In this document: in pieces, positions 61,668 to 63,955 of the stretch
Layout: the number at the start of each line of letters is the position of its first letter
How positions within the stretch are numbered: the first letter of the stretch is position 1
Origin: Natroniella sulfidigena
GTDB lineage: Bacteria; Bacillota; Halanaerobiia; Halobacteroidales; Halobacteroidaceae
DNA: 64,000 nt
Assembly: GCF_023223645.1 (NCBI RefSeq)
Contig: NZ_JALKBY010000010.1
Location: 1 to 64,000, forward strand
Direction of reading: 5' to 3'
Translations under genes and position numbers: made by a program
Notes under the pieces: model-generated
Told to the model about the DNA's origin: nothing
Database searches by the model: none
What the model saw: the letters and a program-made list of their open reading frames with translations, nothing else

Positions 61668-61733
61668 ATTAGTTTTATTTTGGTGTATATAATACTTTGT
61701 TTAGGTAATAACTAATATAGGGGGTAGGTGTAC

Positions 61734-61907
61734 ATGAAAGAATGTGTGTTAGAGCACAAAGCATGTGAGTATTGTGGTGAATGTTTACTTTGTGATATGA
61801 ACTCTAATAAAAAATGTGATAACTGTATGAAATGTATTGAGGGTGAATCTAATTATAGAGGGATTAAAATAGATGAAGTTCAGTATGATGAGCCGCAATC
61901 TAATTAA
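61734..61907 (+). CDS. 57-aa cysteine-rich mini-protein
   Basis: The ATG at 61734 follows a strong GGGGGTAGG site. The product has eight Cys in 31 residues: C4, C11-x2-C14-x2-C17-x2-C20 and C28-x2-C31-x2-C34, then an acidic, cysteine-free tail (EGESNYRGIKIDEVQYDEP). The spacing suits Fe-S or zinc binding in two half sites. It follows the ferredoxin gene and ends in a very strong terminator. I do not recognise a family. Confidence 0.72.
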   Translation: MKECVLEHKACEYCGECLLCDMNSNKKCDNCMKCIEGESNYRGIKIDEVQYDEPQSN

Positions 61908-61918
61908 GCTGATCGTTT

Positions 61919-61962
61919 AACCCAAGAAATAATTTATGGATCCATAAATTATTTCTTGGGTT
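61919..61962. terminator. Loopless 44-bp palindrome terminator
   Basis: Perfect over 44 bp (half AACCCAAGAAATAATTTATGG less its last base pair context; centre GGATCC). It ends the ferredoxin/mini-protein transcript and may also isolate the recombinase region. Confidence 0.85.
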
Positions 61963-62040: not shown

Positions 62041-62925
62041 GTGTATGTTTATAGGTTATATAATAAAGATAAAGAAATTATTTATGTAGGAAAGACAACA
62101 TTAAAAATTTATAAAAGAATTTGGACTCATTTTTCTAATCTCAAAAAATATGATGAAAGAGGATTATGGAGAAAAGAAATACGATTTTTTGATTATGCTA
62201 AAATAAGAAATAAATATGAATTAACAATGTATGAAATTTTTTATATAAATAAGCATAAACCAGTATTTAACACTAAAAATAAATTCAACTGCAAATTAAC
62301 ACTTGAGTTAGAAAAACTTAATTTCTCAAGTTTGAAGAACATTAGTGAATTAGGTATAGATATAAAATATTATTTGGAATTATATAACCAAAGACAAATA
62401 AAATTTAACCTTAACAAGAAAACATTTAATATAGAAAACAAAAGGAAGTTAATTGATAAAATAGATAGTAATTATTCAGAACTTTTTCAATTAATAAGAA
62501 AAAACATAAATGAATTGAATTCTAATTCATTTTACAAAACAAGGGATTTATTAGTTGTTAAACTGGCATTTTATGCTGGATTAAAAACCTCTGAAATAGC
62601 TTCTTTAAATTGGAGTGATATAGATATGAAAAACAGAGTAATAAACATTCGCATTAAAAATAGTAATTATATTATGCCAATGCATTTGGAAATAAAAAAT
62701 GAAATTGAAAGCTATTTGAATAATAGTGACAATAATAATAAAGCAGTTGTAATATCAAATCGTAATAATAGAATCAGTATAAGAACAATACAGAAGATGA
62801 TAAAAAAATATAGTTCAAATGATTTAACACTTAATAAAATCCGAAACATATTCAAAAAAGAAATTTTTAGATTGACTAGTAATAAGAAATTGGGGGAGGA
62901 AATTATCAATCATAAAACTAACTGA
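62041..62925 (+). CDS. GIY-YIG nuclease fused to a degenerate tyrosine recombinase
   Basis: A 294-aa fusion starting at GTG. Residues 1-80 form a GIY-YIG nuclease domain: YVYRLYN, IIYVGKT (12-19), catalytic Arg 26 in KRIWTH, Glu 65 and Asn 77 (EIFYINKHKPVFN). A Lys/Asn-rich linker (85-160) follows. Residues 165-294 match the catalytic half of the next gene's recombinase: GLKTSEIASLNWSDID against GLRISELVSLNVNDIN, and SNRNNRISIRTIQKMIKKY against SNRGNRISTRTVQKMVKKY. Catalytic residues are lost: Arg I is Lys 182, the HxLR box is NKIR, and the gene stops after IINHKTN, before the nucleophile Tyr. A targeted nuclease or a blocker of the neighbour are possible roles. Confidence 0.85.
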   Translation: MYVYRLYNKDKEIIYVGKTTLKIYKRIWTHFSNLKKYDERGLWRKEIRFFDYAKIRNKYELTMYEIFYINKHKPVFNTKNKFNCKLTLELEKLNFSSLKNISELGIDIKYYLELYNQRQIKFNLNKKTFNIENKRKLIDKIDSNYSELFQLIRKNINELNSNSFYKTRDLLVVKLAFYAGLKTSEIASLNWSDIDMKNRVINIRIKNSNYIMPMHLEIKNEIESYLNNSDNNNKAVVISNRNNRISIRTIQKMIKKYSSNDLTLNKIRNIFKKEIFRLTSNKKLGEEIINHKTN

Positions 62926-63022
62926 CATAATACTTCACAAAAGATACATTTTGTGCATTGATATAAAACATTGAAATAAATATGTAAAAATAATATAATT
63001 TATAAAGGGAGGTCTTCAATTA

Positions 63023-63955
63023 ATGAAAAACATAAAATATAAACAAGCCGTTAAAAGTTTTTTAAAGTATTTAATAGCAGAACGTGGTTATTCTGAATTA
63101 ACTATTAAAGAGTATGAACTTGATTTAAACGTATTTGCTAGATATTTAAAAAAAGAGTTTGATTGTTCTGAGAAAAAATTAACAATTGATGACATTAATG
63201 AATTTCAAATTTCTGAATTTTTAGGTGATATTATTTTAATTAAAGACAACTCAGCTGCAACAAGAAATCGTAAGTTATATAGTTTGCGTTCTTTTTTTAA
63301 ATTCTTAAAAAAGAAAAATTTAATAGAGAAAAACCCAGTTGATTCAATTGAACCAACTAAAACAAAATTAAAATCTGAACCAATTTACCTTAGTTATAAA
63401 GAAATAAAGGAATACCTAAAAGCAATTAAAAATTATGATTCTAAAAATAAAAATCGAGATATAGCAATCATTAAAACTTTCCTTTATTGCGGATTACGTA
63501 TTTCTGAATTAGTAAGCTTAAATGTAAATGATATTAATTATCAAGATCAATCAATTAAGTTTTATGGAAAAGGTAATAAAGAACGTTATGTTCCATTACA
63601 TCAAGAAGTTATTGCTGCTATAAAAAATTATTTACCAGATCGCAAGCAAATTACTCCTAGTAATGCTGATGCTAAAGAAGCTCTTTTTCTATCTAATCGT
63701 GGCAATCGAATCAGTACCCGAACTGTTCAAAAGATGGTTAAAAAATATGCTAAAAAAGCAGGGATTAAAAATGCTAACCAAATAACGCCTCATAAATTAC
63801 GACATACCTTTGCTTCGATTTTATATCGAAAAACAAAAGACTTGCGTGTGTTACAAGAATTATTAGGCCATAGTGACATCTCCACAACTCAAATTTACAC
63901 TCATACAGATAAAGAACAGCGTAAGAACGCTGTCCAACAAATGCCCGAGCTTTAA
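63023..63955 (+). CDS. Tyrosine recombinase/integrase (Xer-like)
   Basis: A 310-aa site-specific recombinase with an N-terminal core-binding domain (about 5-105) and a catalytic domain with a complete active site: Arg 159 (CGLRISE), the beta-hairpin Lys (YGKGNKERYV), HKLRHT (His 257, Arg 260), LGHSDI (His 283) and nucleophile Tyr 292 (QIYTHTDKE). Size and motifs match XerC/XerD or simple integrases. GGGAGGT precedes the ATG. Because it sits next to the fusion whose C-terminal half resembles it, the two are probably one mobile or immune unit rather than a chromosomal Xer. Confidence 0.93.
   Translation: MKNIKYKQAVKSFLKYLIAERGYSELTIKEYELDLNVFARYLKKEFDCSEKKLTIDDINEFQISEFLGDIILIKDNSAATRNRKLYSLRSFFKFLKKKNLIEKNPVDSIEPTKTKLKSEPIYLSYKEIKEYLKAIKNYDSKNKNRDIAIIKTFLYCGLRISELVSLNVNDINYQDQSIKFYGKGNKERYVPLHQEVIAAIKNYLPDRKQITPSNADAKEALFLSNRGNRISTRTVQKMVKKYAKKAGIKNANQITPHKLRHTFASILYRKTKDLRVLQELLGHSDISTTQIYTHTDKEQRKNAVQQMPEL

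Follow-up and report, generated by a model that had tools for sequence, protein, structure and literature searches.

The origin-directed nuclease of vibriophage ICP1, Odn, combines a T5orf172 domain, which belongs to the GIY-YIG superfamily, with a RepA_N domain from a satellite replication initiator (PMC8263062, PMC10448857). This architecture, in which a GIY-YIG-superfamily nuclease is linked to a domain taken from a protein that binds the target site, resembles that of the fusion described here, and the escape of target variants from Odn cutting may have a counterpart at dif, the candidate target in our locus. However, Odn acts for a phage against satellites, whereas the fusion contains a dead Xer domain and its gene lies beside the chromosomal dif site and xer gene. 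RepA_N is absent from the fusion, which may thus work like Odn but is not an Odn homologue. The free-standing GIY-YIG homing endonucleases of the T4 Seg type also have a separate DNA-binding part, are encoded by a stand-alone gene that neighbors a conserved one, and share with the fusion a sparse distribution and probably a replaced flanking tract. Known free-standing GIY-YIG homing endonucleases use binding modules of the zinc-finger or helix-turn-helix type, whereas the module of the fusion is derived from a recombinase and its gene is located at the chromosomal dif locus.

The XerS/difSL, XerH/difH and XerL/dif systems rely, as the predicted system of this locus would, on one Xer and a near-symmetric dif (PMC5357621, PMC9765430), and XerS/difSL is a described precedent for the linkage of gene and site seen in N. 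sulfidigena (PMC5357621), but none of them has been described with a dead-Xer nuclease in the space that separates dif from the flanking gene. IMEX, integrative mobile elements that exploit Xer, also bring foreign DNA beside dif, but are flanked by two dif copies, whereas a single dif adjoins the fusion. Neither the module nor the place was found for GIY-YIG homing enzymes in the literature searched, which left subscription journals largely outside and joins no such parts. The first-pass annotation did not recognize the arrangement as a described system. The parts are of known kinds; their combination and their place are new to us.

Xer and dif are housekeeping parts that need to stay matched, and the ways in which their specificity changes are poorly understood. 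In the genera in which a dead-Xer nuclease gene adjoins dif, the dif type was found to be exchanged together with the half of Xer that binds DNA, with breakpoints in xer. If the nuclease drives these swaps, it would offer a directly testable mechanism for switches in dif/Xer specificity.

A GIY-YIG Domain Fused to a Dead Recombinase Domain

The window analyzed, a stretch of 64,000 nucleotides, comes from the 2.6 Mb draft genome of the halophilic bacterium N. sulfidigena and contains, in this order, zn59, the fusion gene, dif and xer (Table 1). The first-pass annotation had reported an open reading frame for a fusion of 294 residues and a neighboring recombinase, and both were recovered where it had placed them. 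Both domains of the fusion exceeded the Pfam cut-offs in profile searches: residues 2–79 matched GIY-YIG (PF01541, E 3.9e-10, 40.3 bits versus a cut-off of 22.6), as this annotation had proposed from key residues, and residues 154–291 matched Phage_integrase (PF00589, E 5.7e-16, 59.2 bits versus a cut-off of 27.1). Residues Y2, Y4, Y15, G17, R26, E65 and N77 are invariant between the fusion and the one homologue found. As judged from its YxY...YxG pattern and its catalytic Arg and Glu, the protein is a member of the GIY-YIG nuclease superfamily, and the N. sulfidigena genome encodes three GIY-YIG proteins above the Pfam cut-off, this one included.

Table 1. Features of the zn59–xer region, with positions in the window.
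Feature	Position	Strand	Basis and remarks
zn59, small Cys-rich 59-aa gene	61728..61907	+	Left edge of the slot; beside xer in 10/12 relatives compared
Long inverted repeat, probable zn59 terminator	61919..61962	+	DNA similarity to genus-mate G001 stops here
GIY-YIG/dead Xer fusion gene	62041..62925	+	ORF of 294 aa, GTG start; Pfam; G011 homologue; dN/dS
GIY-YIG nuclease domain	62044..62277	+	Fusion residues 2–79; residues 1–84 show 68% identity between both fusions
Linker region of the fusion	62293..62499	+	Residues 85–153; poor fold in the model, pLDDT under 50
Dead tyrosine-recombinase catalytic domain of the fusion	62500..62919	+	Residues 154–293; Pfam, model/Foldseek, lost catalytic residues
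Recognition-helix block VISNRNNRISIRTIQKMIKKY of the fusion	62749..62811	+	R244, R248, Q251, K252 kept; role by homology to XerH helix K and XerC K222 (PMC5241119)
Predicted dif site ACTTCACAAAAGATACATTTTGTGCATT	62932..62959	+	28 bp; inverted repeat upstream of xer; class-wide dif type
Promoter-like site of xer, TTGAAA-17-TATAAT, between dif and xer	62971..62999	+	11/12 consensus matches; consensus only
Intact chromosomal Xer recombinase gene	63023..63955	+	310 aa; order zn59–xer–MATE conserved among relatives
5′ part of xer, codons 1–140	63023..63442	+	Compared with genus-mate G001, history differs from that of the 3′ part

The C-terminal half of the fusion has a tyrosine-recombinase fold, by the Pfam match and by the structure model, whose recombinase half had XerA (5hxy) as its best Foldseek match (E 3.5e-7); the alignment behind this model was thin and included xer rows. 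The mean pLDDT of the model was 56; the recombinase half was usable, with residues from about 163 to 260 mostly at pLDDT 70–87, and the GIY and linker parts were poor. The linker occupies the place of the N-terminal core-binding domain of Xer.

An active tyrosine recombinase carries the set R-K-H-R-H/W-Y. In the catalytic-residue alignment, the nucleophile Tyr is missing and the His of HxLR is replaced by Asn in both fusions, and Arg II is retained in both. The Arg I position is Lys182 in N. sulfidigena and Arg in the homologue, and the H/W position is His and Ile, respectively. The losses of His and Tyr noticed in the first-pass annotation are thus common to both copies, but that of Arg I is not. 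The sequence predicts that neither fusion is an active recombinase.

In contrast to these losses, both fusions retain residues of the recognition helix, namely R229, R233, Q236, K241 and Y242 in Xer numbering, and the helix that enters the groove is the best-preserved part of the dead domain. The block in which fusion and neighbor had been seen to match is correct and lies in this helix. In XerH, the recognition helix enters the outer major groove, where K290, like K222 of XerC, touches outer bases (PMC5241119), and in our reading of the alignment the residues listed above would be the equivalents of these contact residues. However, most base contacts of XerH are made by its N-terminal domain (PMC5241119), which the fusion lacks, and the dead domain alone could therefore be weakly specific.

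The Fusion Is Old, Rare and Maintained

A search of 199 relatives, 59 genomes of the class and 398 of the phylum, sets that overlap, gave one homologue of the fusion, 45% identical and located in the same slot. It belongs to G011, a genome of a different family, and combines the same two domains. The fusion is present in 2 of the 59 class genomes, and is absent from G001 and G009, the genus-mates of N. sulfidigena and G011, respectively. Between the two fusions, identity is 68% in the GIY part, 35% in the linker and 36% in the recombinase part, with dN/dS values of about 0.18, 0.3 and 0.5, respectively, and a dS over 1. The recombinase halves form one clade (support 99/98). Judged from this clade, the domain identities and the dN/dS values, the pair therefore goes back, at the sequence level, to one old fusion that has been kept as a protein and is most constrained in its nuclease part. 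A recent duplication of the neighboring xer was ruled out, as both fusion halves cluster together on a long branch; the block-by-block resemblance of the second half to the neighbor holds, but not as that of a recent copy.

The GIY part resembles GIY-YIG proteins of phages and plasmids, and one viral contig contains a GIY-YIG relative. Matches to the fusion in phages and plasmids were limited to a single domain, none covering >80% of the query. PADLOC gave no defence-family match for the fusion, and a search for fusion remnants between zn59 and xer of relatives returned only noise in AT-rich DNA.

The Slot between zn59 and xer Contains a Predicted dif Site

The neighboring gene encodes the conserved chromosomal Xer of the class, with an intact Phage_integrase domain (Pfam, E 1e-48) and a SAM-like N-domain, and a MATE gene lies nearby downstream in 12/12 relatives compared. 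The slot between zn59 and dif-xer is occupied by the fusion in two genomes and lacks it in the other relatives compared. Sparse presence in one conserved slot that is empty in relatives is the distribution of a homing endonuclease gene.

A predicted dif site, which the first-pass annotation had missed, lies directly upstream of xer and consists of 11-bp arms and a 6-bp center. The fusion stop codon precedes it by 6 bp in N. sulfidigena and by 8 bp in G011. The pattern TTCGYAAAA-n6-TTTTRCGAA (≤2 mismatches) was present in 48 of the 59 class genomes, versus two genomes for a reversed control pattern, and five genomes that consist of a single contig (G011, G019, G028, G029 and G030) have a site of this type at 0.48–0.54 of the record, a place near the terminus; G014, where the value is 0.20, does not follow this pattern. 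In other families, the site is some 10–50 kb away from xer. We take the inverted repeat as the predicted dif; sites that are symmetric, usually single in a genome, located at the terminus and linked to xer would fit a single-recombinase Xer/dif system. The symmetry suggests that a single Xer acts at dif, yet N. sulfidigena has other integrase-family genes. The consensus dif of the class has no match in either genome with the fusion, and the N. sulfidigena site differs by a symmetric G-to-A change in both arms. No second dif copy was found in the N. sulfidigena genome at up to 3 mismatches, and an element integrated at dif in the manner of an IMEX was ruled out, since no second copy flanks the fusion.

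Other dif-like sequences were observed. G014 carries two inverted dif-like sites about 400 bp apart and not mid-record (C1:716072-716095 and 716493-716516), with an arm, TTTTGTGCA, that is the odd right arm of the N. sulfidigena dif. A degenerate dif-like sequence directly precedes the xer start in G031, G036, G055, G034 and G042 (L090, L093, L042, L015 and L023), some of which also have a better dif elsewhere; it is possibly an operator for xer autoregulation. In viral contigs, the dif patterns gave 14 and 17 exact matches, counts that come without a chance level.

dif Types and xer 5′ Parts Are Exchanged in Both Genera

The dif of N. sulfidigena is a variant of type A and that of its genus-mate G001 is of a second type, type B; in the other genus, G011 has type B and G009 type A. 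The type B sequence, TTCGTTAAA-n6-TTTAACGAA, was observed upstream of xer without the nuclease in G001, G003 and G010 (L047, L049 and L056), where it is common to two families along with the xer 5′ half. The four genomes with type B have xer 5′ alleles that fall into one clade (98/99), which spans families.

The xer genes are mosaic in both genera, with breakpoints inside the gene, a pattern that flanking replacement in homing could produce. Between N. sulfidigena and G001, DNA identity is 56–72% over most of codons 1–140 (78% in one window) and 80–88% thereafter; the clade of these two genomes was rejected at codons 1–140 (p 0.003) and recovered at codons 141–310 (96/97). Between G011 and G009, identity is 55–76% up to about codon 220 and then 82–89%, and their clade was rejected at codons 1–220 (p 2e-76) and recovered at codons 226–310 (84/90). 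Among 87 congeneric pairs from 8 genera, these pairs were the only downward outliers in the relation of the xer 5′ and 3′ parts (z −3.2 for G009/G011 and −3.1 for G001/N. sulfidigena; the next value was −0.7). The two outlier genera of the eight are the two that carry the fusion, for which the chance is 1/28, a figure computed after both mosaics had been seen. On the left side of the fusion, the zn59 terminator is, in both carriers, the point where resemblance to the genus-mate stops or restarts.

The recipient is clear for G011 alone; in the other genus, either N. sulfidigena or G001 may be the recombinant, and the xer 5′ half of G001 is the more deviant one. The idea that both carriers received one same cassette was dropped, because the two differ in dif type and in the 5′ part of xer, and because in the N. 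sulfidigena genus the recipient is ambiguous.

A Proposed Homing-Type Nuclease and Its Alternatives

The reading that we favor, tentatively and with close to even confidence, regards the fusion as a free-standing GIY-YIG nuclease of the homing type, one that is targeted by its dead Xer domain and spreads together with dif and the xer 5′ tract. The dead domain would take the nuclease to a resident dif/xer locus without the fusion gene, and the GIY-YIG domain would break the DNA there. Repair off the donor would copy the fusion with the adjoining dif and the xer 5′ part, and the recipient would gain the fusion, an uncut dif variant and the matching DNA-binding half of Xer. We infer the binding of dif, its cutting, the copying by repair and the self-immunity through a variant dif from the domains, the slot, the adjacency to a dif-like site, the dead catalysis with a kept helix, the constraint, and the replacement of dif and xer 5′ parts in both genera.

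A break-and-copy event in the dif/xer 5′ region would account for the slot, the swap and the breakpoints, and a GIY-YIG nuclease with an Xer-derived guide would be a natural agent of such an event. The occurrence of the fusion in the same slot in two families, with its stop codon within a few base pairs of dif, argues for homing, and the mosaic xer genes and switched dif types are independent evidence for an option that the first-pass annotation had raised. Its proposal that the recombinase half guides the nuclease to the neighbor's site is partly supported, by a predicted dif that adjoins the fusion in both genomes and by the groove helix that is best kept. Against homing, the type-B genomes G001, G003 and G010 indicate that swaps are not always accompanied by the fusion today, and only two copies of the fusion are known, in carriers that do not share one common transferred cassette.

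It is possible, though doubtful, that a selfish nuclease guided by the catalytic domain of the dimer recombinase attacks dif at the terminus and rewrites both dif and the DNA-binding half of Xer in its host, thereby driving the evolution of dimer resolution. If the fusion helps to replace dif and xer, it would be a novel type of element at the chromosome terminus, either selfish or guarding, and the few guides that GIY-YIG nucleases have borrowed would be joined by a recombinase-derived module.

As the main null explanation, which we consider rather unlikely, dif and xer may be swapped occasionally by ordinary homologous recombination via the conserved 3′ half of xer, with selection for new dif types, the fusion being a neighbor with another role. 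Such a passenger would explain why three genomes have type-B alleles without a fusion and why the fusions of N. sulfidigena and G011 are linked to unlike dif types, but not that the swap is confined, among the 87 congeneric pairs, to both fusion-bearing genera, nor that the fusion lies right next to dif in both families and contains an Xer domain of its own.

The main functional rival of homing is a guard nuclease comparable to Odn, with which the host would cleave invading elements that bear a mimic of dif and use Xer to integrate, the host dif being an uncut variant. Odn is an established case of a GIY-YIG-type nuclease whose site-binding domain has been borrowed (PMC8263062), and both carriers lack a consensus dif, the N. 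sulfidigena site being changed symmetrically in both arms. We nevertheless regard this role as distinctly improbable: the fusion matched no defence family, an element exploiting dif was not found in these genomes, and guarding alone does not explain the mosaic xer genes.

The fusion might also act as a partner of Xer: its dead domain would enter the Xer-dif complex, and its GIY-YIG domain would nick junctions or resolve them while chromosome dimers are being separated. Such a role would agree with the location of the fusion at dif and with the existence of junction-resolving GIY-YIG enzymes such as SLX1. It is very unlikely, since the fusion is missing from 57 of the 59 class genomes, most of which have the same Xer, and is thus not needed for dimer resolution. 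A decaying chance fusion without function, to which the fast divergence (36% identity) and lost catalysis of the recombinase half might point, is the least credible explanation, given a frame that is open in two families, dN/dS values of about 0.18 and 0.5 and the retained GIY residues.

Two further observations concern the slot and the recombinases of these genomes. In G006, the slot between zn59 and dif is filled by an open reading frame for a small membrane-protein-like product of 134 aa (L051:4988-5392). Elsewhere in the N. sulfidigena genome, three different tyrosine recombinase genes follow each other in a row on one strand (G000:C27:166071-169601; L009, L012 and L107), with frames of about 535, 474 and 369 codons, an arrangement that resembles a recombinase-in-trio element.
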